From Aspidiotus rigidus (Eukaryota; Arthropoda; Insecta; Hemiptera; Diaspididae), in contig JAVHKY010000001.1 in NCBI GenBank assembly GCA_035079385.1, positions 7,441,501 to 7,505,500 of the forward strand: a DNA stretch of 64,000 nt, read 5' to 3'. Shown here one piece after another: positions 3,864 to 54,866 of the stretch. The notes beneath the pieces are model-generated. The model was not told the DNA's origin. It was given only the letters and a program-made list of their open reading frames with translations, and did no database searches. The position numbers were made by a program, and so were the translations under genes. Positions within the stretch are counted from its first letter, which is position 1. Every line of letters starts with the position of its first letter.

Positions 3864-5191
3864 TCTAATATATAAAATAAAACGTTTGTCTGTCTGTCTG
3901 TCTGTATGTTCGTCCATAACTTTCGAACGCCTTATCTTATCGACCTGGAATTTTTTTTGAAAAATTTCGTTTTTTCTGGGTCAGGTTCTTAAATACATTT
4001 CGATGTTTTGACTCCCTGAAGGTGGAGTAGGGGGCGACAAAATTAGGAAAAACGGGCATTATCGAGTACTGAAACTGCTTTGCGCTGTACGTTAGACCTA
4101 CGCGCGTTGAGTGGCGCAGTTTCGAAAATTGAATTATTGTGATAACTCGAGTATAACTCATTTTTATGAAAAATTGAAGAGAACAAAAATTGTAGCCCCT
4201 GTAATTTCCTTTCGAATGAGCCCGGTTCCAGATTTTTAGGAGGAAATTTTGTGACTACAGTATTCGCTGTACTTCCATCCTAAGTAAGTTATTTTAACAG
4301 GGAACCTGTTTTATGGGGGGCTATTTGAGAAATCTTCCGTCCGCCGTCCGCCGTGCGCCGTCCAGCGAAAAACTTAGAAAAATTTCGACTCTCGAGCCAT
4401 ATATGATAGGAGGGGGACTTGGAAAAATTTCGACTCTCGAGCCATATATGATAGGAGGGGGACTTAGAAAATTTTCGACTCTCGAGCTAAGAGTGGAAAT
4501 TTTAACAAGGAACCTGATTTATCCAACTATATTATATTACACTAATAGTTGGTCTAGGCCTTCTTTTTACTACCTTTCTCCAAATCTAGGCTTCCTTGAA
4601 TTTTCAATACCAAATCTCACTCGAATCATAAAACAGGTTCCCTGCGTTCCTCGTTTAACTTCGTTAAGGAAGCCGTAATTTTATTCACAGTTTTAAAAAC
4701 ACCTACATGAAGGATTTTACATCCGGTATCTCATATAAGAACCAATGTCTAGACACGGTGCGCACTGCCTATGGGCTAGCGGAAATGACCCTTTTTTTTA
4801 CCTGTTGTCCGTGTGTTTTCTTAGGGACTGGCAAAATGTCAATGGATTTGTCTGTATTCTGCTGTGATACAGGCTTCACGCGTTAAGTCAGCTCTCAAGT
4901 GAATTAGTGTGTAAAAAATTTAATTTGGTGATTTTATTTTTGTGCGACTCGGAACTTTGATATTTTATAAGTACAGTCGCAGTTTTTGGTGTCTATTTTC
5001 TTATTTTTGAACTGAATAGTTGTGAATTTTGCAAAACTCTTTCCACTGTTTCTTTTTTTAAAATTCATCTGAATTCCAAGATACCTACAAAACACACATA
5101 CCTACAAGATACAGATACCTATAAAACAAAGATATCTACTCAACACACAGCTAGCGGTCAGGCGCGCCGGAGGCGCGTCGCCAACCGCTAG
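3864..5191 (+). mobile_element. Non-autonomous Helitron with both termini
   Basis: The 5' end reads TCTAATATATAAAATAAAAC after an A, followed by the (TGTC)n tract typical of many arthropod Helitron 5' ends. The 3' end has a GC-rich hairpin (stem CGCGCC/GGCGCG, loop GGA, 5164-5178), then about nine bases and CTAG followed by T. These are the defining Helitron features: 5'-TC, a hairpin 10-12 nt before 3'-CTRR, and insertion between A and T without target duplication. An outer stem CTAGCGGT/ACCGCTAG brackets the hairpin. There is no Rep/helicase frame, so mobility would depend on a partner. A hairpin-capped element (4296-4677) is inserted within it; without that insert it is about 950 bp. Confidence 0.8.
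4296..4677 (+). mobile_element. Hairpin-capped minisatellite element (HCM), copy A
   Basis: The 5' hairpin AACAGGGAACCTGTT lies at 4296-4310 (stem AACAGG/CCTGTT, loop GAA). GCCGTSC heptamers follow at about 4340-4362, then two and a half 45-bp monomers containing CTCGAGCCATATATGATAGG. The conserved 3' part ends with CAGG-TTC-CCTG, then TTAAC-TTC-GTTAA, then GGAAGCCGT. Flanks are ATTTT at 4291-4295 and ATTTT at 4678-4682, a candidate 5-bp target duplication. A second, internal 5' end (AACAAGGAACCTGATTTAT at 4498) follows GGAAATTTT, so part of the copy is a nested insertion that later lost its middle. No coding capacity. It is inserted in the Helitron. Confidence 0.85.
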
Positions 5192-6143: not shown

Positions 6144-6522
6144 AACGACGGGACGGCTTCCTTAACGAAGTTAAACGAGGAACGCAGGGAACCTGTTTTA
6201 TGAGTCAAATGGGATTTGGTATTGAAAATTCAAGGAAGCCTAGACCTAGATAAAACTAGTATAAAGAAGGCCTAGACCTACTGTAAGCCTAGTACAATAT
6301 AGTTTGAGAGTCTAAATTTTTCTCGAATCTCCAGCTATATATGATAGCTCGAGAGTTTAAATTTTTCCAAGTCCCTTTCATATCATATATAGCTCGAGAG
6401 TCGAAATTTTTCCAAGTTCCCCTCCTATCATATATAGCTCGAGAGTCCAAATTTTTCCAAGTTTTTGTAGGACGGCGCACGGCAAATTTCTCAAAAGGCC
6501 CCCATAAAACAGGTTCCCTGTT
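6144..6522 (-). mobile_element. HCM element, copy B
   Basis: A minus-oriented copy. The 3' end lies at 6144 (CGACGG repeated once), followed by the TTAAC-GAA-GTTAA stem. The array has about three 45-bp monomers, followed by heptamers reduced to GGACGGCGCACGG, and the 5' hairpin AACAGGTTCCCTGTT at 6508-6522. It is flanked by A-runs on the left (AAAAAAAA) and AAAA on the right, so it entered an A/T run. The 63- and 73-residue frames across it are translations of the array. Confidence 0.85.
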
Positions 6523-16253: not shown

Positions 16254-16960
16254 CTACATTTGCAGTTTTATGGCTTCCAGGGAGAATGAGGGAAAGTACC
16301 ATTGCCAATCTGCAGCAGGAATTCTGAGAACTCTTTTTCTCCTGCTTCCGCTCGCTTGTTTCCAGTCAGATTCAGCGTCTTGAATATACGCCATAAAGAG
16401 GAAAACTTGATAGAATTGGCAATTGTAGCAGCTTTTGAACCATGTGGAACTACTGGCAGTACTACAATTTTGCCACAAAGTGACACGTCATTTCCCAAAA
16501 TGTCCTTCAGTGATCTGTTCATACACATCAGAGCGTACATGTTCGCCATTGGAGCTTCATCCGAATAATGATTCCTGCATTCTTGATACTGTTTGGCTTA
16601 GTTGCTGTTGACTTTTGAACCAGATATCAATGAATGCTCGTGGAGATTCAGAGGTAATTTCAAACGGCTATGAGAAGTACATCCTTTTGATAGTAACATT
16701 GCTGCTGTACCGGTCCACGCCACAGAAATAACTTCTAAACCATGCAACATACATGAAGAAATGAGGCATGGATTAACAAACGTTTTCCCGGTTCCAAAGT
16801 ATGCATTGGCTTTGGATGTGTCATTTTTTAGCTTCAATTCCAAAATATGGTCAATGATCACTCGCTGACCTTCATTTGCTCGCGCTACCATTTCTATAAC
16901 CTGGTCTTCATCAATAGAATCAGGCATATGAAAGAGCTTGGCTCCGTTGAGTGTTTTTAG
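16254..16960 (-). pseudogene. PIF1-like helicase of Helitron type, broken
   Basis: On the minus strand, DEDQVIEMVARANEGQRVII (16850-16915) is the region before Walker A. The Walker A loop survives as FGTGKTF with its first residues lost. GLEVISVAWTGTAAMLL and TSHSRLKLPLNL follow (16630-16730), matching PIF1 motifs Ia and II surroundings of Helitron and PIF1-like helicases. After an in-frame TAA near 16597, SDEAPMANMYALMC carries the Walker B DEA. KIVVLPVVPHGS shows that the segment with the conserved FRQ motif has been deleted between VVL and PVVPHGS. The frame then ends after EKEFSEFLLQIGNGTFPH. The C-terminal 2B/SF1 motifs are absent. No Rep domain is seen upstream, so Helitron origin rather than another PIF1-bearing element is inferred. 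Confidence 0.75.
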
Positions 16961-19260
16961 ACTAAGACAAACTTTTTATATTGAGTAGTTTTTGAGTATA
17001 CTTGTTTGTTACTTCATAACTTTACTCAGACTCAATAGATTTGAGTGACCTAAAAAGATTCATAAGGAGCTTCATACACCGAGTGTTTTGAGCCCTTAGT
17101 GAACCTTGTGCGATAATTAGGGCCTGAGATATAAGTAGTTGTTCAACTTTATAGAAGTTAGTCTTGAATTATTTCAAATATTATATAGATATGATGAAGC
17201 CGATCAAAAATTAGGATTATGCGGGACCAATGCAGCAAAGGTTAAGTTGAAGACGTATAATTTTTATCACCACGACCAAAATCCAACTAATCTCAACGAC
17301 GTCGATCATAACGTAAAAGAGAAATCGACTTGATTTTCAGTTGACATTTAAATTTAATGCCAGAATTCGACTCAATAATGCGACATCAATAGTGAGTTAA
17401 TAAAAAAGGACGGGCAGTCGATTGTTAGTCGAATCACGATAATTTTTGCTCAATTTGCAGTCTAAATTGGACGGAACTCATTCGACGAAAAATTTACGTC
17501 AATTAGGGGTCATCGCCCATGAATTTCAGAGAAGGCAGTGCAACAGGTTGAAGCATGAGAGAATATGTTACAGAATGTAGTATATACTTTTTTCAAAATT
17601 TATCAAGTTCGTCTTAGCGCGTTCGCGTAGATCAACTTTTTTTCAAGCAGTGTAACTTTTATACCAATTGTTCGCATCTCTTCAAGTCTGAAATGATAAA
17701 CACTAAGTTTTCCTGATAAAAAACTATTTACGAAATGGGTTTTACATATGAAAAGTTTCATGATGAAACCACTTATAAGAAAGAAGCTTAGAACGTGTTA
17801 TGGAGGGGGGAATTTCGAACTATGTACGTTACATACGGTCAAGTTTTCAATATTTCAACGCCAGACGAAAAAAAGAAATATATTTTTAACTTTCTACATG
17901 GAGGTGATCTTCCAAATTTTTTTCTGCGTGAAGTGCCCCGCACTTCTTGACCCACAAAGTTAAATAGTTAGAAAGTATGAGATTCAAAAAAATATTATAG
18001 ATTTACGAGAAAAGTAGGTATGGAACGATGTTTCGTTAGAATCGTGTATATGCATCTAAGAGAGGCGCAAATGAAAACTATCCAAATGAAGAATTATCGG
18101 ACCACTGAACTCTATTCATTATAAAAATTTAAAGCTAACCACCCTCGAGTTCTATACGATATGAAGAAATTTTTGATTCTTCTCTCGAGAACAATTCCAA
18201 CATCATACGCATCATTAACATAACCCAGCAATTAAAGACACGTATATGCGCGCTTTGAAATCTCATTTCGAAAGCTCGCGTAAATCGGTCTTATCCTCTT
18301 TACGATCAAAACTTGACTCTAGATTTTTTTAATTTTCTATTTTATGTCTAAAACGTGTCATAAGTAGAAGTACGATGTGGTATCTGTGTACCCCTTAAAG
18401 CTGTAAGGAAACCCTTATTACTATCGTACTTTTGAAAATACATCAGCAGTTAATATATTATTCTAGTCTGGTACACCGAAAAATGGTTTACTTAAATGCA
18501 CTTTAAACTGCATTCTTGAGTATATTCAAATCTTGTATACGTTTTAGAAATTTTTTTAAAAAGTTTGCTTGGATTTATATGGACGGAGAAGAACATGGAA
18601 AGATACTCAGCGATTATGATGCACACGATAATTTTATCGAATAAAATGTAAATTTTTAAAAATATTATTGTCATTTCCAAGAATGTTGGAATTTTTGTAA
18701 TATGTGGATGATAATTTTTGAAATATAATTTATTTATATTGCAGATGTATCCTACACAATGTACGGATAAAAGCTGTTTAGGAAGTATTATGTATCCCTG
18801 TCAATTCAAGAATTCGACGCCAAGGTCACAAGAAGATATTTTGTTGTTGGCTTCAGATTTTTTCAACCAGTATTTTACGTCCATAAAAAGGTAATAATTT
18901 TTGAGATTTACTTCAATATACTCGTTCGAAATTAGACAAGAAAAATTACATTACCTGTGTGCAACTGAGTGGAACCTAACCCAAAATCCACTCCATCCCC
19001 TTTTCATTGGTTGATTCAAATTCTAACGATTCTATGGACAAAAAAAAAGTAAAAAGTTCAAAGCGTCGATAACCAATTTTGAGTTTCTGATCTTTGAGCA
19101 CAATAAAAACCATATACACAAACTTGGAAAAATTCAATTTTCAATCATCTTTCACGAACTGATCGTAATAATTGGTTTTGAGGAGCTGATTGGAAAAGGG
19201 AAAAAAGAAATTTGAGACTAAAATAATTTTCTTTTTCTATTAAAAAAGGATGTGAATTAC
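16961..19260. other. Gene-free stretch, GTCGA-rich scrap at 17.29-17.51 kb
   Basis: At 17290-17510 repeated GTCGA/TCGAC words (ACGACGTCGATCATAACG, GGACGGGCAGTCGATTGTTA) suggest a decayed relative of the 28-kb satellite family. The rest is AT-rich with 60-70-residue chance frames at 17139, 17748 and 18492. No gene recognised. Confidence 0.45.
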
Positions 19261-22800: not shown

Positions 22801-23332
22801 AGCGGGGAACCCGCTATCCATTTTGTTAGGAGATTACATCCTCAGAAAACGTCCGCGTCCGCGAAGTTAGTAACCTAAGGTTAGGTTAGGTTACAGGACT
22901 GAGAAGAATTTCGAGTCTCGAGCTATATATGATAGGAGGGGGACTTAGAAGAATTTCAAGTCTCGAGCTATATATAATAGGGGGGGGGGGAGGGACCTTT
23001 GAAGAATTTTGACTTTCGAGCTACCGTCCAACCAAAAACTTGGAAAAATTTTGAGACTCGAGCTATATATGATAGGAGGGGGACTTAGAAGAATTTCGAG
23101 TCTTGAGTTATATATGATAGAAGGGGGACTTGGAAGAATTTCAAGTCTCGAGCTATATATGATAGGAGGGGGACTTAGAAGAATTTCGACTCTCGAGCTA
23201 TATATGATAGGAGGGAATGTAGAATGATAATTTCGATTTGAATTATATGACAAGATTATCAACTCAGTTCCACACCACCTGAGAGGTCGAGTTAAGGAAT
23301 TGCGGGTTCCCCGCTGCCATTGCAACGTCTGC
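22801..23332 (+). mobile_element. Hairpin-capped element, family 2, copy 1
   Basis: The 5' hairpin is AGCGGGGAACCCGCT (22801-22815; stem AGCGGG/CCCGCT, loop GAA), after TTTTATTTTT. It is followed by GTCCGCGTCCGCG and three TTAGG-type units (TTAGGTTAGGTTA near 22877), then about six 45-bp monomers of the HCM type with 'gaagaatttcgagtct' variants and a G-run at 22981-22992. The 3' end has stem GCGGG/CCCGC with loop TTC (23302-23314). A 9-bp stem GCCATTGCA / TGCAATGGC, loop ACGTC, follows at 23316-23338. The design mirrors family 1 with different bases. The second copy is at 53375-53764. Confidence 0.75.
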
Positions 23333-23371
23333 AATGGCTTCTAATTTTTTTCTTATACTACAGTTTAAAAT

Positions 23372-24730: not shown

Positions 24731-24940
24731 AAAAAAAAAAAAAAAAAAACTGATTGCAACTGGTTCGTCGCTCGAACGAGCACGAAACCTAAAAAAGACG
24801 GAGCAAGCATTTGGTCTCAGAAGAAATCCGACTTCCGCGTTTCGTGGGAAGCGATTCTTACCCACAAAAATGTGAAAAAATTCCGGCGAGAAATAAGCAA
24901 ATAAAATTCGTCGTCTTTTGATTCTGAAATTTTTCATTTT

Positions 24941-25468
24941 AACAGGGAACCTGTTTTAGGGGGGGCTATTGAGAAATCTACCGTGCCCCGTCCGCCGTGC
25001 GCCGTCCAGCGAAAAACTTGGAAAAATTTCGACTGTCGAGCTATATATGATAGGAGAGGGACTTAGAAAAATTTCGACTCTCGAGCTATATATGATAGAA
25101 GGGGGGGGGGGGACTTGAAAAAAATTCGACTCTCGCGCCATATGTGATAGGAGAGGGACTTAGAAAAATTTCGACTCTCGAGCTATATATGATAGGAGGG
25201 GGACTTGGAAAAATTTCGACTGTCGAGCTATATATGATAGGAGGGGGACTTAGAAAAATTTCGACTGTCGAGCTATCATATATAGCTCGAGATTCGAGAA
25301 AAATTTACACTCTCAAACTATATTATACTACGCTTATAGTAGGTCTATGCCTTCTTCATATAGCTTTATCTAGGTCTAGGCTTCTTTAAATTTTCAATAC
25401 CAAATTCCATTTGACTCATAAAACAGGTTCCCTGCGTTCCTCGTTTAACTTCGTTAAGGAAGCCGTCG
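24941..25468 (+). mobile_element. HCM element, copy C
   Basis: Preceded by CATTTT. The 5' hairpin AACAGGGAACCTGTT lies at 24941-24955 and heptamers at about 24980-25012. Five to six 45-bp monomers follow, one with a G-run. The array orientation flips near 25275 (GAGCTATCATATATAGCTC), then comes the conserved 3' unit with AGGCTTCTTTAAATTTTC and CTTCGTTAAGGAAGCCGTCG ending at 25468, followed by TTTTTT. The open frames on both strands are array translations. Confidence 0.9.
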
Positions 25469-28059: not shown

Positions 28060-28740
28060 CCATATCAAATCGATTTTAACTCACCTTTTTCAGATTTTTT
28101 ATCGTCCTAAAATTGACTGCTCTGTTGCGTTGATTTGTGGTTGTTTGGTAATGTACGCTGGTCGACTTTAAATCGACCTTACATTGATGTCAATAACGAG
28201 TCAATTGCAATTCGACTTCATCAACGTGAAATTGACTGCTTTGTTGGGTTGATTTCAAGTCGAATTCTTGTCTGGTAATGTGCGCTGGTCGACTTTAAAT
28301 CGACCTCACATCGATGTCGATAACGAGTCAATTGCAAGTCGACTTCATCAACCTGAAATTGACTGCTTTGTTGGGTTGATTTCAAGTCGAATTCTTGTCT
28401 GGTAATGTACGCTGGTCGACTTTAAATCGACCTCACATCGATGTCGATAACGAGTCAATTGCAAGTCGACTTCATCAACCTGAAATTGACTGCTTTGTTG
28501 GGTTGATTTCAAGTCGAATTCTTGTCTGGTAATGTACGGTGGTCGACTTTAAATCGACTTCATATGGAGGTCGATCTGGAGTCAGTTTCAAGTGGACCTC
28601 ACCAAATTTTACTATCAATCTGGAGTCGACTGCTCTGTTTGGTCGATTTAATGTACGCGGGCCGACTTTAAATCGACCTCAAATCATGGTCGATTTGGAG
28701 TTGATGTACAGTCGTTCTGTGTGTTTGTTTGGTGACCTCG
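28060..28740 (+). repeat. 127-bp GTCGA-rich tandem satellite
   Basis: Units begin near 28112, 28231, 28358, 28485 and about 28610. The spacing is 119, 127, 127 and about 125 bp. The middle three are nearly identical and the outer two diverged. Each unit contains an imperfect palindrome around GTCGACTTTAAATCGAC plus several other GTCGA or TCAATTG words (GATGTCGATAACGAGTCAAT). The unit is not a multiple of three and is not open throughout. Diverged relatives lie at 14690-14985 and 17290-17510. Confidence 0.8.
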
Positions 28741-33148: not shown

Positions 33149-35050
33149 CGACGGCTTCCTTAACGAAGTTAAACGAGGAACGCAGGGAACCTGTTTTATG
33201 AGTCAAATAGGATTTGGTATTGAAAATTCAAGGAAGCCTAGACCTAGATAAAGCTAGTATAAAGAAGGCCTAGACGTAAAATAAGCCTAGTATAATGTAG
33301 TGTGAAAGTCCAAGTTTTTCTCAAATCTCGAGCTATTTATGATAGGAGGGAGACTTGGGGAAATTTGTCCCCTATCATATATAGCTCGAGAGTCAAAAGT
33401 TTTCCAAGTCCCTCTTCTATCATATATAGCTTCAGATTCGAAATTTTTTCTAAGTCCCTCTCCTATCATATATGGCGCGAGAGTCGAATTTTTTCTAAGT
33501 CCCCTCTCCTATCATATATGGCTCGAGGGTCGAAATTTTTAACAGGGAACCTAATTTATGGGGGGCTATTTGAGAAATCTGCCGTGCGCCGTCCGCCGTG
33601 CGCCGTGCGCCGTCCAGCGAAAAACTTAGACAAAATTTCGACCCTCGAGCCATAGATGATAGGAGAGGGACTTGGAAAAATTTCGACTCTCGAGCTATAT
33701 ATGATAGGAGGGGGACTTAGAAAAAATTTCGACTCTCGAGCTATAGCTGATAGGAGGGGGACTTAGAAAAAATTTCGACTCTCGAGCTATATATGATAGG
33801 AGAGGGACTTGGAAAAAATTTCGACTCTCGAGCTATAGATGATAGGAGGGGGGACTTAGGAAAAATTTGACTCTCGCGCCATATGTGATAGGAGAGGGAC
33901 TTGGAAAAAATTTCGACCCTCGAGCCATATATGATAGGAGAGGGACATGAAAAAATTTCGACTCTCGAGCTATATATGATAGGAGAGGGGACTTGGAAAA
34001 ATTTCGACTCTCGAGCCATATATGATAGGAGGGGGACTTGGAAAAATTTCCACTCTCGAGCCATATATGATAGGAGAGGGACTTGGAAAAATTTCGACTC
34101 TCGAGAATATATGATAGGAGGGGGACTTAGAAAAATTTTCGACTCTCGAGCTATAGATGATAGGAGGGGGGACTTAGGAAAAATTTGACTCTCGCGCCAT
34201 ATGTGATAGGAGAGGGACTTAGAAAAAATTTCGATCCTCGAGCCATATATGATAGGAGAGGGACATGAAAAAATTTCGACTCTCGAGCTATATATGAAAG
34301 GAGGGGGACTTGGAAAAATTTCCACTCTCGAGCTATATATGATAGGAGAGGGACTTAGAAAAATTTCGACTCTCGAGCTATAGATGATAGGAGGGGGGAC
34401 TTGGAAAGATTTCGACTCTCGAGCTATATATGATAGGAGGGGGGACTTGGAAAAATTTCGATTCTCGAGCTATATATGATAGGAGAGGGACTTGAAAAAA
34501 TTTCGACTCTCGAGCCATATATGATAGGAGAGGGACTTGGAAAAATTTCGACTCTCGAGAATATATGATAGGAGGGGGACTTAGAAAAAATTTCGACTCT
34601 CGAGCTATAGATGATAGGAGGGGGGACTTAGAAAAAATTCGACTCTCGCGCTATATATGATAGGAGAGGGACTTAGAAAAAATTTCTAATCTGAAGCTAT
34701 ATATGATAGAAGAGGGACTTGGAAAACTTTTGACTCTCGAGCTATATATGATAGGGGACAAATTTTCCCAAGTCTCCCTCCTATCATAAATAGCTCGAGA
34801 TTTGAGAAAAACTTGGACTTTCAAACTACATTATACTAGGCTTATTTTACGTCTAGGCCTTCTTTATACTAGCTTTATGTAGGTCTATGCTTCCTTGAAT
34901 TTTCAATACCAAATCCTATTTGACTCATAAAACAGGTTCCCTGCGTTCCTCGTTCAACTTCGTTAAGGAAGCCGTCGTTTTTCTAAGTTTTTCGCTGGAC
35001 GGCGCACGCCAGATTTCTCAAATAGCCCCCCATAAAACAGGTTCCCTGTT
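33149..35050 (-). mobile_element. HCM element, copy E (outer, interrupted)
   Basis: The minus-oriented copy starts CGACGGCTTCCTTAACGAAG at 33149 after ATAAAAAA. Its array is interrupted at 33540 by copy F and resumes at 34978 with CTAAGTTTTTCGCTGGACGG. It ends with the 5' hairpin AACAGGTTCCCTGTT at 35036-35050. Across the insertion the outer text is 'gtcgaaattttt' then 'ctaagtttttcgctgg', so the point of entry is a T-run inside the 45-bp monomer. Degenerate monomers continue for about 70 bp beyond 35050. Confidence 0.85.
33541..34977 (+). mobile_element. HCM element, copy F (inner, longest array)
   Basis: Begins AACAGGGAACCTAATTTATG (two changes weaken the 5' stem). Five GCCGTSC heptamers follow at about 33581-33616, then about 25 copies of the 45-bp monomer. 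The conserved 3' unit ends GGAAGCCGTCG at 34977. T-runs flank both sides (ATTTTT before, TTTTT after). Because 45 bp is 15 codons, frames stay open on both strands for up to 194 residues as 15-residue repeats; these are not credible proteins. Confidence 0.9.
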
Positions 35051-37871: not shown

Positions 37872-38065
37872 CCAAGAAACCTGTTTTATGGAAGTATTTT
37901 TTCGAAAAACGTCCGCCATCCGCCGTCCTTCTGGAAAATTGTGCTTACCAGGGGGGGGGGGGGCTGTAATTTCATCGAAAATAGCTTTAATACCACCCAA
38001 AAAATATCCTCTTTTCGCAGTCCATTACTCTCATCACTGTTATTTCAGAGACACGTAGTGTAGTA
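37872..38065 (+). mobile_element. HCM 5' end, old and degraded
   Basis: AAGAAACCTGTTTTATGGAAG followed by GTCCGCCATCCGCCGTCC and a G-run resembles the 5' end plus heptamers of the HCM family. The array and 3' end are not recognisable. Low certainty. Confidence 0.35.
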
Positions 38066-38286
38066 TATTTTATCTGCTTGCTCCATTTCGGAGGTTAACT
38101 AACTGACGGGCTCACTCAGTTCACGTAGGTCCTAGCCCCTCCATCATTCTTATCTTTTAAACTAGTACGAAGTATATGCCTAATAAATTGCGTTTTGGGC
38201 TTGCCAGTTGTCAGGCTCGTTCACTCCCCTGCTAACCCGATTAATTTCACTTTTATCGATAAATCGGAAGTCGATTCTGTAGATTG

Positions 38287-38796
38287 TATCAGGGAAGCTC
38301 TGAGATTGGGGCTGCTCAGAAAAATTTACACTTCCGAGCTGTATGCAAAAAACCGACCTTCGTGCTAATTATGATAGGCTTAAAAAAACTTTCAATAATC
38401 AAGAGTCAAATTTTTCCAAGTTCGTTTCATATCATATACGTAACTCAGTCACGTCGTAACTCTACTACTCGTAGAAAAAGTTTGCGGCTGTATGTCATAT
38501 ATAAGGTAGTAGAACGGTTGATGTTATCATTATCATCCGAGCTATCACACGTCAATAGCACACAATCGGAACTGTGAACTTTTTGTTGATTTAGTGTTCG
38601 CACTGCCGTCTCAGAAGTATTGTTGTATTTCTTGAGCTGCATTACGCTACACTTACATAACTATACATAATACCATGAAAGTTCAATTTTTTTCAAATAC
38701 AGGCATAGCTCGAGAGTTCGAATTTCTCAAGCCCCTCCGTTTTTCATAAAACAGGTCTCCTGCGCCCCCTCGTTCAACTCCGTTAAAGAACCCCCG
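38287..38796 (+). mobile_element. Old HCM-related element, subfamily with TGTATCAGGGAA start
   Basis: Starts TGTATCAGGGAAGCTC. Degenerate monomers (GAGTCAAATTTTTCCAAGTT, GCATAGCTCGAGAGTTCG) follow. The 3' end CATAAAACAGGTCTCCTGCG is followed by CTCGTTCAACTCCGTTAAAG at about 38796. It shares the altered start with the next element at 39004. The two open frames here are artefacts. Confidence 0.55.
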
Positions 38797-39003: not shown

Positions 39004-39470
39004 GTATCAGGGAATCTGTTTCATGGGAGAAGGGGGTCTTTTAGAAGATTTTGGCTTCCCATCCGGTGGAAACCAACCTACCCTTATAAAGGAGTTGGAC
39101 TTGAAAAAATTTTGAATATTCAACAATATAAGAGGGGAACTTCGAAAAATTGGAGGTGGGACTTTAAAAAATCTTACAATCGAACTACATGGGGGAGGGG
39201 AAGGACTTTGATTATATGGTAGGAGGGAGACTTGAAAAACATTCGAGCGTCAAAAGAGTTGGACTTCAAACAATTTTTTAATTTGAAGCTATGCAAGACA
39301 GGAAGGTACTAAAAAAATGTCGATTTTCGAACTATACGCAATAGGAAGGGTACTCACAAAATTTTATTTTTTGGTGACTCTAATTTTGAATTGAATTCTC
39401 AATATCGGAACCAATTCGCCTCATAGAACAGGTTCCTTGCGTTCCTCGTTCAACTTCGTTATAGTACGGC
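39004..39470 (+). mobile_element. Old HCM-related element
   Basis: Starts TGTATCAGGGAATCTGTTTC at 39004 and contains degraded monomers ('ggacttgaaaaaattttgaatattcaa'). It ends ATAGAACAGGTTCCTTGCGT then CTCGTTCAACTTCGTTATAG near 39470. The long inverted repeat begins within 30 bp of its end. Confidence 0.6.
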
Positions 39471-45134: not shown

Positions 45135-46254
45135 AACTCACGGGTTCCTTAACGGTCGGACTTGCTCGGGTACCTAACTGACTTGCGATCTCCAGAAGCC
45201 CGGACAAGGTTATGGACCAGCGAGGGCTCCGTAAAAGGGAAACCTTCGCGTGGGGGCAAGATTTTTAAGTGAAGAAAGACGTTCGATGCCACAATCACCG
45301 GGGGTTCTGAAGTGAGCCAATCCGACTCTGCACTTTACATTCTTTGCTCTAGCACCGGTCAATATCAACGAGACAAAAGATTTTGTGATTGTGATGATTC
45401 ACCTAGAAATTCATTCATTGTAAATTGACGGCAAAAAATCAATCTCGGGCCTGGTTCATCTCAAAAAGAGAGAATGTGTAGCAATTATCGTCGTGCTAGG
45501 CGAGGGAAGTGAATTTTCCGACTTCTCACTACATTCAAATTCTTTTGCCTAAAACAAGGAGAATTTCCGTCTGTTGGGCAAAGCTGGTTTCTTGCCGCGA
45601 GTTCGCAACGGAAAAAGAAGCTTTGTAAATTTACATAGTCTTTTCACGCATCACAAGAATTTCAGCAAGTTCGCCCGGCCCGATGAAACACGGGGTCGGT
45701 CGTAGTCGATCTCTCACCGCAGATACGTAAGAGAAAATTAGACTTTGGCAATATTCCTTTCATCGTCTGAAACGACTAGATTTGCCGCACATCTGCCCGC
45801 CTCGATCATAGCGGGGCCTCAATCGATCTCTCACCGCGAGTCCACAACGGAAGACAAGCTTCTTGGCGTCACTCCCTCCATCACCCTACACAACGAGAGT
45901 TTTCGCGCACTCGCCCGGTCTGATTGAACACGGGGCTCATCATGACTCCACAATAGGAGATAATCTTGGTAACTTTTCGACCACTGCTAAGAACAACGAG
46001 AGTTGCATACATTTGCTCGCTTCAGTCAAACTAGTGGCTCTCACCGATCTTTCACCACGAGACCACAACAGAAACCGATTGCACCTGTTCTATGGCAGAA
46101 ATTTGATTTTAATACTGAGAGTCGAAAGTCGAAATTTTTCCAAGTCTGAACTCCTTTATAAGAGTAGGTCAGTTTTTGCCAAACGGGGCGGGGTGGATAC
46201 TAGAATTTTCAAAAAGACCCCCAAAAGAATAGGTTCTTTGTTAAAACTTGATCG
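45135..46254 (-). mobile_element. Old HCM-related element enclosing 110-bp satellite
   Basis: The left end ACTCACGGGTTCCTTAACGG resembles the inverted 3' end of the 38.8-kb copy. The right end is clearer: degraded monomer GAAATTTTTCCAAGTCTGAA, then TTTTCAAAAAGACCCCCAAA and GGTTCTTTGTTAAAACTT, matching the minus-oriented 5' end. If both ends belong together, the 110-bp array replaces most of the usual 45-bp array. Confidence 0.4.
45540..46080 (+). repeat. ~110-bp diverged satellite, site 2 (five units)
   Basis: Unit starts are near 45559, 45654, 45777, 45894 and 46001. Each begins (C/G)A(G/A)A(G/A)TTT(C/T) and carries a GCCCG(C/G) word, ACGGGGC, GATCTCTCACCGCGAG-type and CCACAACGGAA-type words. 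Units are considerably diverged. The 60- and 161-residue plus frames over it are translations of the repeat. Confidence 0.65.
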
Positions 46255-46898: not shown

Positions 46899-47765
46899 TT
46901 AAGATCGTCCAAACGAGAAATCACGGTGTGAGTCATAAACAAGTTCGATCAGGCCATCTTCCGGAATATACGAATTAAGAACAGTGATACCGTCAGTGTT
47001 GAGATGACGAATTATCTCTATATTCTCGAGGGCGATACGCTTACGGTAGGAATTCTCCTTATGGAGGAGCTTTTCGGATCCCTCACGGAAGCTGTGGCCA
47101 CTGTTTATTAAGTGATCGGCGAAAGCTGACTCCCCCAAGTGTCCCTTCTTCCAAGACTTCAGGTGCTCAGCTACTCGAACTTTCATTTGGCGGCTGGTCT
47201 CACCAATATAAAAGCCTCCACAATCCTCACACTCCAACTTATACACACCACTCCTCTCATCAACAGGTATGGGGTCCTTCAGTCTCACAAACAACCTCTT
47301 GACTGTGGTAGGGTTGTAAAACGCGGGTCTGAAGCCAAACGGGCGAAGGGCCCGACCCAATTGCTGGGAGAACTTCCCCAAGAAAGGGAGACTGATCCAA
47401 CGCAAACGGCGATCACGGATCGTGTCTCGGGGGAGGGAGGTGGTGGAATCCAGGAGGCCCCTCGTAACTTTCCTCCGAACCATCACGTCAACATCAACAT
47501 TGACCCCATTCACTCTGGCCAGGTGTTTTATTGTGATTAACTCTTTCTTGAAGGCAGACTGACTCAAAGGAATACGAGTCAGTCTGTGAACTAGGCTATG
47601 AAAAGCAGCCATCTTGTGAGCAACAGGACCGAACGAACCACCGTGGACTAAAACATCGGTCGTAGTATCTTTCCTGTAAATTCCAAACTTATGGATACCG
47701 TCTATTATAGAGATCGATAAATCCAAAAAGTTAATGGAAATACCCCTATTTCCAACGTAAATTTG
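46899..47765 (-). pseudogene. Penelope-like GIY-YIG endonuclease part
   Basis: The frame continuing after the frameshift gives about 285 residues. A linker of about 150 residues with basic clusters (RRKVTRG, RDRRLRW) leads to GVYKLECEDCGGFYIGETSR, which holds the GIY (here GVY) and YIG motifs and a CxxC pair of the kind found in PLE endonucleases. VRVAEHLKSW and SAFADHLINSGHSF follow, supplying the conserved Arg and the H-bearing motif. The C-terminus (IALENIEIIRH) resembles other PLEs. The endonuclease nicks target DNA to prime reverse transcription. The domain looks complete and undamaged. Confidence 0.9.
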
Positions 47766-48610
47766 ATGGAAGGGTACCAGGAATTGAGATACCTCAGAAA
47801 CTCACCAAGGAGATCTGGGTGACCAGTCCAGGTACATAGAACGTCATCAACGTACCTGTGCCAATAATGAATATGATTAAGTAACACCTGGTTCGAGGAA
47901 AAGAGGTCAAGTTCAAACTTAGATATGAAGATTTCGGATATGAGAGAGCCTAGTGGTGATCCAATGGGGATCCCTACTTCGTCAGGGAATTCGAAAAATT
48001 TCCCTTCAAATTTACAATAGTTAGGGGACCAGCAAGTATTAAGAAGATCGAAGAATTCGTGAAGCTCATTATGAGGAATGTTGGCTTTGACGAGTAGCTC
48101 ACCCATACGCTGGATAGTAGCAGCCTTAGGAATATTCGGGAACAAACCAACAACATCAAACGAGCAGATGGTCGTTCCCGGGGGAAGGCTTACATCCTTG
48201 AGGACGTCAGTTAAAGAGGCCGAATTCAAGACCGAATGAGGGGATTCAAAATCAATACGATTTTTGAACCAACGGTCAAAGAATTTAGCAAGGAGGTAGG
48301 TAGGAGAGGAGACGAAAGAAACAACGGGTCGCATCGAGGTATTGTTCTTATGCACTTTAGGCAGCCCGTACAAGAGGGGGGGGGGTGTGGGGTTAGGAAC
48401 GAGGAGGGCTTTTTTCAAAGCAGGAGTTTTGATAACAGCCTCACTCCTGTTGATGACACACCTAACTTCTTTGACGTGCTTGGGAAAGCTGAAATCCTCA
48501 CTCTCTTTAGCACCACACTGCTGTAGGACTTCATGGACCTTAGAAGAATAGGCCGATCTCTCCATCACTACAACAGCGTTGTAACTTTTTCCTTCTTTTT
48601 TCTCTTTTTT
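47705..48610 (-). pseudogene. Penelope-like reverse transcriptase part
   Basis: About 290 residues in one frame from near 48610 to the premature stop at 47705. Motifs in order: VVVMERSAYSSKV at the truncated start, YGLPKVHKNN and MRPVVSFVSSPTY (RT1/2), ICSFDVVGLFPNIP (RT3, motif A with catalytic Asp), EVGIPIGSPLGSLISEIF (RT4, motif B), and HRYVDDVLCTW (RT5, motif C, YVDD). The thumb region begins after it. PLE RTs copy RNA into the target using a 3' end, and their family is related to telomerase RT. The catalytic Asp residues are all intact; the loss is at the N-terminus and at the frameshift after FTLE. A start codon at 48568 is arbitrary because the true start is missing. Confidence 0.9.
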
Positions 48611-48620
48611 TTTTTGCTTT

Positions 48621-50846
48621 TCAGTGGAGATTGCGGTCTGGGCAAACCTAAAAAATTAGGAATTTTATCTTGAGACAAAACTGGTCACCCTGTTAATAAT
48701 CTGTAGCATTCAAAAACAGTTGTCCGATAAGCACGGACAATAGCGATTGAAGCGCGCTCTGACCAAACAACTTCTTCTCGCGCACCCTGCGAAAGGTAAT
48801 CATTGATTGAAACTGGTAAAATGATCGTGCACAATCTCTAAGAATATGTGAAGAACTAACTGGAGGAGTCCCAGTTCGCTACAAAACTAATCTCATTGAG
48901 GGCACGATGGACTACAAGATATGTACTCTCTGACTCATTTCGTGTTATCAATTTTCACATTCGCATCTTTTTCACCTTCACTTCGGGGTAGATACGGGTT
49001 AAGACTAAGAATTCTTCCCCTTTTCAAGGACAAATTTTTTCAAACTATTCGATCTATGTTCACTCACTAATGCGAGGAATGATATGATGTCATTGCGATG
49101 ACGAACTCTACAAGTATTCTTCTCCAAACTGTTTGCCTATGAATGTATTCATCGACGGTCTGAGTATTTATGATGGCAACTGTTGTAAGGAGGAAGAAAA
49201 GAACGACGAATTCATTTATTCAATAGGCAAGCAATTAAAGTTTGTAACTTCAAACATTAGAATTTCCCGTTTTCTTCTATATAATTAATGGGACGAATTC
49301 AGCGTCTACTTTGGCGGACCTTTCAACAAATCAATAGACAATATGAAAGCAGTTTCGAAAAAATCATTATGACGCTAAGCGATTTTGTATAATTGCACGA
49401 AGATGTCTGCGTGTGGGTCGCGTAATTTTTTCTAATTAGTCGAAGTTGTTCAACTATCTATTACGAGAAAGCTTTTCAACAATATTACGTAATGTATGAA
49501 CTGTTGTTATAGAGAAAGAAAGCTTATTGTGTGTAACAGAATTTCTGCCATGAGTTTCCAAAGTGTAATATGTAGGACGATAAGTCCGTCCAAAATTTCA
49601 TTGAACATCATATCACGTACTTATATTAGTAAAACTAACTATATTCATGAGAATCTGGAATATTTTATCTATTAATTGTAAACAGTGATTTTCCAAGTCT
49701 CTTTTCTCATAAAAGTTCATACATCATAATTATTCGAATATGAGAAGCAATATTTAATACTTAATATTAAATGCCCGTCTCGACTGATTCGTTTGATAAA
49801 TTATTATGTATAATTGACACTCTAGCGAAACTACAGAAAAGATTGAGATCAGTGATATCAGCTGAGAGCTGCGTTGCTTTGTTTCTTTCAATTTTCAACC
49901 CGAGTTCATTCACCTGAAAATAGGAAGTTACTTATTCTATGTATGTTGCATCTTGTATCATATATAATAATTATACATGAATAATTTTCGAGCTTATGGA
50001 ATGCACATAAATTATTCAGGGTATTTTGCAAAGTATTTTCAACGCTGCGCCGAGTGCAACGCCATTTTGCTGTTTTTCAATTATTGAGCGATAATCATGT
50101 TTACTTCCCGCGCTTCATCGCGACAGGTATGTATCTTCTCGCGCATTGAAATTTTGTTGCTCGATAAGATATGTTAGGCGTTGCAAACAATAAACGCTGT
50201 AACTAAAAATGAGTATTGCTTACTAATGAGAGGTACAATTAATATCGAAAAACGGCAAGTGACATTGTACACTCAGGTCGAAAATACGTATAGAAATACC
50301 CTCAGTAGTTCATACGCTTTCTAAATTTTCGAAAGTTCGCGAGTGTAATAAAAGAAACCGGTTCATTTAACAAGACGGGCGTGCCAGAGAAGACGATAAT
50401 ATTGAGTGTGTTCTCATTGGTTGATAGAATTGACGGCTAAGGTTCATCATTGGTCGTAGATGGATCAGCCGAAAGGAAGGTGCGATACGTAGAACGACGC
50501 ATGAGACCATGGTCGCTATAAAGGAGGCCGGAACATGTACAGAACGATAACAGTGTACACGAAAGTCACCTTCCAAATGCTTCAGTGTAAAAATAGAGTC
50601 CCTTCTTCAAAATCATTAAGAAATCGGGAATCCTTCGATCATCTTCAAATGCGACCGAAATTTTAGCAACTATCCTCGGGTATCTCTGGCAATGATTTCA
50701 AATTTTTAGGTTTAATAGGTACAGTACTTATACCTTCACAATTTTCTGAATTTCTTCCCAGAAGAATGCACCCTTAACGCCGTTACGCATGTGCGTGGAT
50801 TAACGTAGTGCTATAGTGTGTATTTACAGAACGAACTATTGATAAA
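48621..50846. other. Gene-free stretch
   Basis: No domain in any frame and no repeat shared with the rest of the window. A 69-residue minus frame at 50367-50576 is unsupported. Confidence 0.5.
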
Positions 50847-51277
50847 ATGACGGCTTCCTTACGAAGTTAAACGAGGAACGCAGGGAACCTGCTGTTTTAT
50901 AAGTCAAGTGGAATTTGGTATTGAAAATTCAAGGAAGCCTAGACCTAGATAAAGCTAGTATAAAGAAGGCCTAACCTACTATAAGCCTAGTATAATACAG
51001 TTTGAGAGTCTAAATTTTTCGCGAATCTCCAGCTATATAATATGATAGCTCGATAGTCGAAATTTTTTCAAGTCCCTCTCCTATAGCTAGAGAGTCGGAA
51101 TTTTTTCAAGTTCCTCTCCTATCATATACCTATAGCTCAAGAGTCGAAATTTGTATAAGTCCCTCTCCTATCATATAGAGCTTGAGAATCGAAATTTTAA
51201 CAGGGAACCTGTTTCATGGGGGACTTTTTGAGAAATTTGCCGTGCGCCGTCCGCCGTCCAGCAAAAACTTGGAAAAA

Positions 51278-51701
51278 CGACGGCGCCTAAAAAAAGTTAA
51301 ACGAGGAACGCAGGAAACCTGTTTTATGAGTCAGATGGGATTTGGTATTGAAAATTCAAGGAAGCCTAGACCTAAATAGAGCTATTATGAAGAAGGTCTA
51401 CACCTACTATAAGCCTAGTATAATACAGTTTAAGAGTCTAAATTTTTCTCGAATCCCCAGCCATATATGATAGCTCGAGAGTTGAAATTTTTCCAAGTCC
51501 TTTTCATCCCATATATAGCTCGAGAGTCGAAATTTTTTTCAAGTCCCCATCCTATCATATATGTATAGCTCGAAAGTCGACATTTTTTCCAAGTCCCTCT
51601 CCTATCATACATAACTCGAGAGTCGAAATTTTTCCAAGTTTTTTGCTGGACGGCGCACGGCAAATTTCTCAAAAAGCCCCCCATAAAACAGGTTCCCTGT
51701 T
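51278..51701 (-). mobile_element. HCM element, copy I (inner)
   Basis: Starts CGACGGCGCC with part of the 3' stem lost (AAAAAAAGTTAAACGAGG), contains four to five monomers and the 5' hairpin AACAGGTTCCCTGTT ending at 51701. It sits after 'cttggaaaaa' of the host monomer region. Confidence 0.8.
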
Positions 51702-53065
51702 AAAATTTCGACTCTCGAGCCATATATGATAGGGGAGGGACTTGGAAAAAAACGACGGCTTCCTTAACGAAGTTAAACGAGGAACGCAGGGAACCTGTTT
51801 TATGAGTCGAATGGGATTTGGTATTGAAAATTCAAGGAAGCCTAGACCTAGATAAAGATAGTATAAAGAAGGCCTAGACATACTATAAGCCTATCATAAT
51901 ATAGTTTGAGAATCTACATTTTTCTCGCTCGAGAGACGAAATTTTTCCAAGTCCCCCTGCTATCATATATAGCTCGAGAGTCGAAATTTTTCCAAGTCCC
52001 CCTTTTATCATATATAGGTCGAGAGTCGAAATTTTTCTAAGTCCCCCTCCTATCATATATGGCTCGAGATTCGAAATTTTTCCAAGTCCCCCTTCTATCA
52101 TATATAGCTCGAGAGTCGAAATTTTTCCAAGTCCCTCTCCTATCATATATGGCTCGAGAGAATTTTTCTAAGTCCCTTTCGTATCATATATGACTCGAGG
52201 GTCCAAATTTTTCTAAGTCCCCCTCCTATAATATATGGCTCGAGAGTCGAAATTTTTCCAAGTCCCCCTTCTATCATATATACCTCGAGAGTCGAAATTT
52301 TTTTCAAGTCCCCATCCTATCATATATGTATAGCTCGAAAGTCGACATTTTTTCCAAGTCCCTCTCCTATCATACATAACTCGAGAGTCGAAATTTTTCC
52401 AAGTTTTTTGCTGGACGGCGCACGGCAAATTTCTCAAAAAGCCCCCCATAAAACAGGTTCCCTGTTAAAATTTCGACTCTCGAGCCATATATGATAGGGG
52501 AGGGACTTGGAAAAAAACGACGGCTTCCTTAACGAAGTTAAACGAGGAACGCAGGGAACCTGTTTTATGAGTCGAATGGGATTTGGTATTGAAAATTCAA
52601 GGAAGCCTAGACCTAGATAAAGATAGTATAAAGAAGGCCTAGACATACTATAAGCCTATCATAATATAGTTTGAGAATCTACATTTTTCTCGCTCGAGAG
52701 ACGAAATTTTTCCAAGTCCCCCTGCTATCATATATAGCTCGAGAGTCGAAATTTTTCCAAGTCCCCCTTTTATCATATATAGGTCGAGAGTCGAAATTTT
52801 TCTAAGTCCCCCTCCTATCATATATGGCTCGAGAGTCGAAATTTTTCCAAGTCCCCCTTCTATCATATATAGCTCGAGAGTCGAAATTTTTCCAAGTCCC
52901 TCTCCTATCATATATGGCTCGAGAGAATTTTTCTAAGTCCCTTTCGTATCATATATGACTCGAGGGTCCAAATTTTTCTAAGTCCCCCTCCTATAATATA
53001 TGGCTCGAGAGTCGAAATTTTTCCAAGTCCCCCTTCTATCATATATACCTCGAGAGTCGAAATTT
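51521..53065. repeat. 765-bp tandem duplication
   Basis: Sequence 51521 to about 52300 repeats from 52286 to about 53065 with almost no differences (one clear substitution near 52067/52832). The offset is 765 bp throughout, which is exactly 17 x 45. Each copy contains the same junction: a minus 5' hairpin, then GACTTGGAAAAAA and a new minus 3' end. It is a recent unequal exchange inside the stack. Confidence 0.85.
51753..52466 (-). mobile_element. HCM element, copy J (inner)
   Basis: Complete termini: CGACGGCTTCCTTAACGAAG at 51753 and AACAGGTTCCCTGTT at 52452-52466, with about ten monomers between. Entered after CTTGGAAAAAA of the enclosing monomer, and the enclosing array resumes with AAAATTTCGACTCTCGAG. 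Confidence 0.85.
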
Positions 53066-53329
53066 TTTCAAGTCCCCCTTCTATCATATATAGCTCGAGA
53101 GTCGAAATTTTTCCAAGTCCCTCTCCTATCATATATAGCTCGAGAGTCGAAATTTTTCCAAGTCCCCCTCCTATCATATATAGCTCGAGAGTCGAAATTT
53201 TTCTAAGTCCCTCTCCTATCATATACGGCTCGAGGGTCCAAATTTTTCTAAGTTTTTCGCTGGACGGCGTACGGCGCACGGCGTACGCCAGATTTCTCAA
53301 ATAGCCCCCCATAAAACAGGTTCCCTGTT
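52518..53329 (-). mobile_element. HCM element, copy K (inner)
   Basis: Left end identical to copy J 765 bp earlier, through duplication. The array is longer (about 12-13 monomers), and heptamers are better preserved (GGACGGCGTACGGCGCACGG). The 5' hairpin ends at 53329. The 134-residue minus frame at 52908-53312 is the 15-residue array translation. Confidence 0.85.
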
Positions 53330-53374
53330 AAAATTTCGACTCTCGAGCTATGTATGATAGAGGGGGACTTAGAA

Positions 53375-53764
53375 ATGCAGACGTTGCAATGGCAGCGGGG
53401 AACCCGCAATTCCTTAACTCGACCTCTCAGGTGGTGTGGAACTGAGTTGATAATCTTGTCATATAATTCAAATCGAAATTATCATTCTACATTCCCTCCT
53501 ATCATATATAGCTCGAAAGTCACGATTCTTCCAAGTCCCCCTCCTATCATATATAGCTCGAGTCTCAAAAATTTTTCTAAGTTTTTGGTTGGACGGCGGA
53601 CGGTAGCTCGAAAGTCAAAATTCTTTCAAGTCTCCCCCCCCCCCCTATCATATATAGCTCGAGACTCGAAATTCTTTCAAGTCCCGTAACCTAACCTAAC
53701 CTGCGAACGCGGACGTTTTCTGGGGATGTAATCTCCTAACAAAATGGATAGCGGGTTCCCCGCC
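53375..53764 (-). mobile_element. Hairpin-capped element, family 2, copy 2
   Basis: Minus-oriented copy of 22801-23332, inserted in an HCM array after GACTTAGAAA. It shares TGCAGACGTTGCAATGGCAG, CCTCTCAGGTGGTGTGGAAC, four to five monomers, a C-run, TAACCTAACCTAACCTGCG and AAAATGGATAGCGGGTTCCC. The 5' stem here is GCGGG/CCCGC with loop GAA. It is shorter than copy 1 because it has fewer monomers. Confidence 0.8.
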
Positions 53765-54515
53765 TAAAATGTCAACTCTCGAGCTATACAGTATATGAGA
53801 AGAGAGGGACTTGGAAAAATTTCAACTCTCGAGCTATCATATATAGCTGGAGATTCGAGAAAAATGTAGACTCTCAAACTATATTATACTGGGCTTATAG
53901 TAGGTCCAGGCCTTCTTTATACTAGCTTTATCTAGGTCTAGGCTTCCTTGAATTTTCAATACCAAATCCTGACTCATGAAACAGGTTCCCTGCGTTCCTC
54001 GTTTAACTTCGTTAAGGAGGCCGTCGTTTTTCCAAGTCCCCCTCCTATCATATATAGCTCGAGAGTCCAAATTTTTTCATGTTTTTTGCTGGACGGCGCA
54101 CGGCGCATGGCATATTTCTCAATAAGCCCCTCATAAAACAGGTTCCCCGTTAAAATTTCGACTCTTGAGCCGTGTATGATAGGAGAGGGACTTAAAAAAA
54201 ATTTCGACTCTCGATCTATATATGATAGGGGGGGGGGGGGAACTTGGATATATTTCGACTCTCGAGCAATGTGTGATAGGAGGGAGACTTAGAAAAAATT
54301 TCGACTCTCGAGCTATCATATATAGCTGGGGATTCGAGGTCTAGGCTTCCTTGAATTTTCAATACCAAATCCCATTTGACTCATAAAACAGGTTCCCTGC
54401 GTTCCTCATTCAACTTCGTTATAAGAGAGCCGTCGTTTTTCTAAGTTATTTGCTGGACGGCGGACGGCGCACGGCCAATTTCTCAAAAAGCCCCCCAGAA
54501 AACAGATTCCCTGTT

Positions 54516-54866
54516 AACAACCTTTCTGATCATTGCCAAATACGCAGGTTTCGGCCTTCTTTCGAGGTGGCCTTGGGCAGACGCTAGTTTCTATTTACTC
54601 AAGTTTACAAACAGAGCGACTCCCCGCCAATAGTACTTTTTACTTCTTTTGTAAACCCGAATTAGGCTTGTGCTAGGATAGACGTAAGACTTTTCACAAA
54701 ATCCTCCCGTGAAACAGTCTTCCCGTTCAAGTGAGTTTTAGCATTTTAAGATTGGAACTACTCTTGGAAAACCCTTCACGGTTCGTTTACGGTTTTCCGA
54801 AGGTGTTTTGATTAGGGCTGCTCCTGGGAAAATCGTCACAAAAAACTGTCGTGGTTTTTTGTCACA
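54516..54866. other. Gene-free spacer
   Basis: Starts in the nested stack's right flank. 'Aaacagtcttcccgttcaagtga' and 'gaaaatcgtcacaaaaaactgtc' words precede the CRE composite; the latter recurs inverted near 60515. No gene seen. Confidence 0.4.

Follow-up and report, generated by a model that had tools for sequence, protein, structure and literature searches.

Results and discussion

Architecture and copies of the family

A single non-coding family, family 1, is represented in the 64-kb stretch of DNA analyzed here (the window) by 12 complete 5' ends and 13 3' ends, as found by a profile scan with the 5' module, the monomer and the 3' module together with a listing of flanks. The counts refer to this one 64-kb window; the 13 3' ends include several with altered or reduced termini (those of copies A, B, E3 and J, and the end at 50849), and kept apart from the counts are older 5'-like ends (37873, 39008 and 46242), older 3'-like ends (38630-38793 and 39307-39466), partial matches to the 5' module (53586-53634, 54681-54726 and 60179-60227) and a mutated 5'-hairpin-like 15-mer in copy A (4504-4518), which is joined straight to the 3' module and is maybe the scar of a nested copy.

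The reference is copy C (24941-25468, plus strand), a full-length element of 528 bp in non-satellite flanks (joined, these score 27.5 against the monomer). Read along the plus strand, it begins with its 5' subterminal inverted repeat, the hairpin AACAGG-GAA-CCTGTT (24941-24955; the fold of 24937-24970 has -3.9 kcal/mol, z -2.76), followed by a microsatellite of GCCGTSC heptamers (24980-25007) and a central array of about six 45-bp satellite monomers (25016-25285; 5.8 copies by TRF, and recovered by the profile scan). A palindrome made from an inverted half-monomer marks the junction of array and 3' module (25268-25287; the fold of 25260-25310 has -11.7 kcal/mol, z -5.0), and the 3' module carries the 3' subterminal inverted repeat AACAGG-TTC-CCTGCG, an inverted copy of the 5' end (25422-25436), and the palindrome TTAAC-TTC-GTTAA (25445-25457), 11 nt before the end; both are read from the sequence, and folding alone gives the palindrome no support. 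The 3' terminus is GGAAGCCGTCG. An earlier, sequence-only reading had described at least a dozen copies of this one architecture (5' hairpin, heptamers, 45-bp array, two TTC-loop stems and this terminus) with variable monomer and heptamer numbers, and our counts agree with it: array size ranges from 2.6 to 24.9 monomers by TRF, and the seven family-1 copies counted have 2 to 5 exact heptamers each.

The ends recur far beyond expectation. With up to two mismatches, the 5' 15-mer AACAGGGAACCTGTT matches the window 24 times, a figure that includes the inverted 3' copies; 0.14 matches are expected, and none of 100 shuffles gave as many. The 3' terminus, with at most one mismatch, has 11 matches where 0.37 are expected. 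The 20-mer of the junction palindrome is found with 0 or 1 mismatch at 6 of 12 3' modules, and twice more (3 mismatches) within the arrays of copies E1 and E2. A sample of ten open reading frames (ORFs) of at least 90 amino acids inside the copies, the longest of 242, gave no Pfam match (E 0.01). An RNA gene was also considered and set aside, since Rfam gave no match at gathering score and ARAGORN no tRNA.

Outside the largest cluster, copies A (4296-4676, plus strand) and B (6146-6522, minus strand) were placed by profile scan, flanks and an inverted-repeat test. Copy D-outer (33149-35050, minus strand; profile scan and flanks) is interrupted at 33541-34977 by D-nested (33541-34977, plus strand; TRF, profile scan, flanks and joins), which has about 25 monomers and lies within a monomer T-run of its host; the 3' modules of the two are 98% identical, and each is at most 94% identical to any of the other 12 modules compared, a similarity that would fit insertion into a parent or sister copy. 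Copy J (59314-59946, minus strand; profile scan, flanks and joins) is nested in the monomers of copy K (59193-60446, plus strand; profile scan and flanks), whose 5' end is missing and whose start is approximate. Between its monomers, J holds a reverse transcriptase (RT) fragment at about 59351-59665 (about 315 bp), 63% identical over 105 amino acids to an RT element elsewhere in the window (47705-48655) and perhaps a captured gene fragment; the 3' module of J is cut down to a short palindromic end. Older, diverged relatives of family 1 lie at 37873-38793, 39008-39466 and 46121-46242, and two of the older 3' modules are 57-65% identical to those of young copies.

A second family, X, has the anatomy and the 45-bp monomer of family 1 between different ends. 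X copy 1 (22802-23338, plus strand; sequence, fold and inverted-repeat test) has GCGGG-GAA-CCCGC subterminal repeats, a TTAGG-like microsatellite, 45-bp monomers and a 9-bp 3' palindrome, the palindromes at its 3' end giving z -6.2 (9-bp arms). X copy 2 (53376-53764, minus strand; sequence, joins and inverted-repeat test) sits in the family-1 copy beta and has partly lost one arm of its 3' palindrome. The inverted repeat measures 13 bp in both X copies, and its inverse stands 19 nt before the 3' end in one of them and 24 nt in the other. The end modules of the two copies are nearly identical and their arrays very different; both arrays hold a scrap, ccgtccaaccaaaaactt, that resembles the 5' module of family 1 (a profile match in copy 2 has E 0.001), which suggests that X may have taken its monomers from family 1.

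Copies A, B, C and D-outer have constant ends in unrelated flanks, and the sequence-only reading was right to see a real mobile family and in where it placed the ends. Satellite arrays do make up much of the length of the element, and monomer number varies, as it would in a plain satellite with accidental hairpin edges that spreads by recombination or as extrachromosomal circles. Such a satellite is very improbable here, given these constant ends, the presence of the same monomer in X between quite different ends, and insertions that break a monomer whose phase picks up again afterwards.

Terminal repeats and probable classification

The hairpin at the 5' end (AACAGG-GAA-CCTGTT) and the stem in the 3' module (AACAGG-TTC-CCTGCG) are one sequence in inverted orientation. 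The sequence-only reading took the two stems as unrelated and therefore overlooked the inverted repeat. In all seven family-1 copies tested, the longest exact asymmetric inverted repeat measures 10-18 bp (just 10 bp in D-nested), and in six of the seven this repeat begins 2 nt inside the 5' end, the exception being E3, whose 3' copy is mutated. The 3' repeat of these seven copies lies 32-39 nt from the 3' end, not counting the T-string, beside a published range of 38-60 for HINEs, the non-autonomous Helentrons. The 3' palindrome of family 1 has 5-bp arms and folds no better than shuffles (z +0.85 alone, z -0.95 with context). All 12 5' ends are preceded by 2-5 T, in keeping with the insertion in T-runs already proposed from the sequence, and 10 of the 13 3' ends are directly followed by 5-7 T, the remaining three being altered ends.

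We considered several other classes of element and rejected them. Canonical Helitrons (Helitron1) begin with TC, end with CTRR and insert between A and T; family 1 has AACAGG at its 5' end and GCCGTCG at its 3' end and a T-run as target instead, so the absence of the TC/CTRR signature, previously remarked upon, holds. Miniature and other cut-and-paste DNA transposons carry an inverted repeat at each terminus and duplicate a target site of fixed length, and in family 1 the 3' inverted repeat is internal and there is no fixed duplication beyond the Ts. Foldback elements of the Tetris type have long terminal inverted repeats; the longest exact inverted repeat here is 18 bp and is asymmetric.

The published description of HINEs, in the portions of text available, gives palindromic subterminal inverted repeats of 12-15 bp that lie 2-4 nt in from the 5' end and, for the 3' copy, about 38-60 bp short of the 3' end, together with a 3' palindrome 8-35 bp from that end (PMC4067079). 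It adds insertion at T|T or in T-rich sequence, boundary T-strings, and both microsatellites and tandem repeats (PMC4067079, PMC7492417). Family 1 has the palindromic subterminal repeat near its 5' end as described (12-15 bp, 2-4 nt), inserts in T-rich sequence with T-strings at its boundaries, and carries both a microsatellite and central tandem repeats. Asymmetric repeats, 3' palindrome, T-run insertion, T-strings, microsatellite and satellite together match published HINEs, so family 1 is of a known kind, and as far as our searches reached it is new as a sequence. The match is imperfect in two respects, the 3' repeat lying slightly closer to the end than the published range and the family-1 3' palindrome failing to stand out on folding. 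The earlier view that no named family shows this combination is overtaken by the descriptions we could consult (PMC4067079, PMC7492417). We judge, with a probability of roughly 0.88, that family 1 is built as a HINE and likely mobilised by the rolling-circle Rep/helicase/endonuclease of an autonomous Helentron, supplied in trans.

Since the element is built like members of the HINE group, rolling-circle transfer by a Helentron protein is likely the way in which it spreads, a mechanism that we infer from group membership. The 5' hairpin would then mark the nick, the 3' palindrome would terminate strand transfer, and an autonomous Helentron elsewhere in the genome would supply the Rep/helicase/endonuclease. 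The single-strand or hairpin-recognising mobilisation suggested by the sequence-only reading was a fair guess. A derivation from Helitron2-type elements, whose partner lacks an endonuclease, or from a proto-Helentron rather than from a Helentron proper, would also account for terminal inverted repeats that are asymmetric and for a hairpin at each terminus, and the Fusarium Helitron2-like elements have hairpins with GAA loops (PMC5148889, as far as the available text describes them). This origin we consider improbable: central tandem repeats, a microsatellite and T|T insertion are the HINE description in the accessible parts of PMC4067079 and PMC7492417, and the host is probably an animal.

The search for a partner covered 28 of the 69 stop-to-stop ORFs of at least 90 amino acids in the window with Pfam, and among these 28 no source of Rep/helicase/endonuclease sharing the ends of family 1 was seen. 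Pfam did find a remnant of a PIF1-type helicase in two neighbouring ORFs and an RT domain (RVT_1), with sub-threshold matches to GIY-YIG, AAA_30, Temptin_C and Proton_antipo_M. The helicase remnant (16268-16975, minus strand) is in two pieces, is possibly Helitron-derived and has no HINE ends adjacent. The RT domain (E 7.5e-9) and the sub-threshold GIY-YIG match lie in overlapping frames of a probable Penelope-like element (46899-48655, minus strand), the pairing being one that we take to be of Penelope type. Searched against protein collections, the RT and the helicase piece matched mostly metagenome proteins; the few organism-assigned matches were all to the RT, from animals, at 31-34% identity, and were not the closest ones. 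These matches and the Penelope-type pairing are the grounds for taking the host as probably an animal. A separate tandem array occupies 28141-28605 (127-bp unit, 3.7 copies, 93% matches). We found no relatives of family 1 in phage records (distant blastn) or in IMG/VR (four patterns, no mismatches), viral collections with little bearing on animals, nor in GTDB genomes (one pattern), a prokaryote collection of equally little bearing.

Insertion into the element's own monomer

The 5' ends of family 1 are not scattered evenly over the window: 7 of the 12 abut an antisense 45-bp monomer at one T-run (cgaaatttt| or a close variant), and if copy E2, which resembles a duplication product, is merged, 6 of 11 lie at the monomer T-run, always antisense. 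Beyond the insert the monomer continues in phase, and element ends flank both sides. For the 11 copies with both flanks, we joined the flanks and compared them with the monomer; scores were 76-140.5 for the seven nested copies, of which six are family-1 and one is X, and 14-37.5 for the four non-nested copies. The joins of E3 and J contain about 30 gap columns each, and those of D-nested and E3 have one short monomer side because these copies are located in the first monomer beside the 5' module of the host.

A nested stack occupies 50849-54515, in which the order of modules in the profile scan is delta (minus) > gamma (plus) > alpha (minus) > beta (plus) > E3, E2, E1 and X (all minus). It can be read as at most five levels, one inside the next, that alternate in orientation. 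Gamma lacks its 5' half and a 3' half on the minus strand is absent, which leaves the two outer levels with half copies and makes them less sure than the inner ones; the lost halves may have been deleted by recombination between like halves. Copy beta (51199-54026, plus strand), itself in an antisense monomer of alpha, is host to E3 (51278-51701), E2 (51753-52466), E1 (52518-53329) and X copy 2, all on the minus strand; beta, E3 and E1 were established by profile scan, flanks and joins, and E2 by profile scan, identity windows and joins.

The 3' part of E2 is that of E1 and its 5' part is that of E3. When 51550-52299 is compared at a 765-bp offset in 15 windows of 50 bp, 14 match at 50 of 50 positions and the other at 49 of 50; the duplication spans 51510-53100 and makes E2 an E3/E1 hybrid. 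Unequal crossover between nested copies would produce such a hybrid, and an assembly error is possible in its place. E3 and E1 share just 88% identity in their 3' modules and are therefore likely separate arrivals.

How unusual the concentration in monomers is depends on the target assumed. Taking T-runs of at least four, of which antisense monomers supply 86 of the 1,625 in the window (about 5%), the enrichment has P 7e-7 for 7 of 12 ends and 8e-6 for 6 of 11. Under other motifs, P for 6 of 11 is 4e-5 (TTTT), 0.004 (AATTTT), 0.08 (AAATTTT) and 0.77 (GAAATTTT). The enrichment fades with longer motifs because many such sites are monomer-borne (in the window, 70 of 231 AAATTTT sites and 60 of 99 GAAATTTT sites), and its fading at AAATTTT or longer means that the target of the element may just be part of every monomer. 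A long target motif is not required, as the varied ends of the five non-satellite 5' flanks indicate (GTTATTTT, GAAATTTT, TTCATTTT, GCGTATT and GTTGTT). It is a fair statement that each monomer bears a site of the kind that the element uses.

The orientation of nested copies follows from the same rule: of 97 monomers, 84 have a run of at least four T on their antisense strand and 7 have one on their sense strand, so that insertion after T places copies antisense. Beside the nested inserts there are 4-5 T on the left and, on the right, 5-7 in family 1 and 3 in X. Occupied monomers thus total 9-11 T in the six family-1 joins and 7 in X, whereas 55 of 57 intact monomers have 5-7 T. The surplus of about four T fits the T-strings published for Helentrons and fits equally a short duplication of T.

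We tentatively read these observations, giving the reading somewhat less than an even chance, as those of a self-targeting transposon, in which the array serves as a landing pad for family 1 and X, insertion is forced to be antisense, copies stack in alternating orientation and unequal exchange converts the stacks into complex satellite, so that a Helentron would feed forward into satellite DNA. The T-run AAATTTTT in each monomer would act as a favoured landing site, so that expansion of the array would add targets and insertion would add arrays, and unequal exchange between nested copies, as may have occurred in E3/E2/E1, would lengthen them into tandem arrays. Nesting could also be passive, every T-run being equal and the stacks arising by chance together with segmental duplication and array recombination, a possibility that we place on the unlikely side. 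The hybrid E2, the 5 of 12 5' ends in unrelated sequence and the loss of enrichment under a longer motif all suit passive nesting, as does the fact that antisense monomers account for a share, 86 of 1,625, of the available T-runs, but that share of about 5% received 6 of 11 5' ends (P 8e-6). Moreover, an identity of 88% between the E3 and E1 3' modules is hardly that of one duplicated insertion, and at the junctions element ends lie on both sides and the monomer resumes in phase.

Comparison with known elements

All comparisons with published elements are made by description, from the available portions of the papers cited. HINE-Mo-1 to -7 of Metaseiulus occidentalis and the Culex HINEs (Thomas et al. 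2014, PMC4067079) resemble family 1 in subterminal repeats, 3' palindrome, T-rich target, T-strings and, in some, tandem repeats; their 3' repeat is 38-60 from the end, whereas that of family 1 is at 32-39 nt without the T-string, and recurrent landing in the monomer is, on that description, a trait of family 1. Cg_HINE of Crassostrea gigas (PMC7492417) is likewise composed of a left subterminal repeat with a microsatellite, a central satellite-like array and a right subterminal repeat with a palindrome, and, as in family 1 and X, related arrays occur in different elements and insertion is T-rich. Its described insertions are into other repeats, whereas those of family 1 recur at a position in its own monomer, and monomers of the Cg_HINE group measure 160-180 bp (PMC8268682) as against 45 bp. 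Oyster loci also show elements inserted within elements, with arrays in different directions (reviewed in PMC12628747). DINE-1/INE-1 of Drosophila (PMC4067079) shares subterminal repeats, a 3' stem-loop, a TT target, a microsatellite and central repeats with family 1, but its subterminal repeats are non-palindromic and it has an extra inverted repeat and a core sequence.

Nesting has precedents among other Helitron-like elements. FoHeli1 and FoHeli2, Helitron2-like elements of Fusarium oxysporum (PMC5148889), have 5' hairpins with GAA loops, as do family 1 and X, and self-insertion is discussed there as the origin of composite copies; these elements differ in having autonomous members, a TNAT-type site and one nested example, compared with the stacks in satellite of family 1. 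Maize Helitrons have been found within or near Helitrons, with multiple termini (PMC3288121), and are canonical Helitrons with no satellite target in the available description, unlike family 1. Across the accessible parts of this Helitron and Helentron literature (PMC4067079, PMC7492417, PMC12628747, PMC5148889, PMC8268682 and PMC3288121), self-insertion and nesting are described, but repeated landing at a single position in an element's own monomer is not. A tandem repeat is reported as a recurrent target elsewhere too. Work attributed to Coates in 2010 reportedly places Lepidopteran helitron-like elements in (GAAA)n microsatellites, a repeat not said there to be the element's own.

Conclusion

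Satellite-carrying elements of the Helentron type have already been proposed as a source of satellite DNA (PMC7492417, PMC12628747, in the text available). The window adds a dissected case, in which the array doubles as a landing site, the ends of nested copies are kept and one likely product of exchange can still be read. If self-targeting holds genome-wide, the step from transposon to satellite would become countable and testable.
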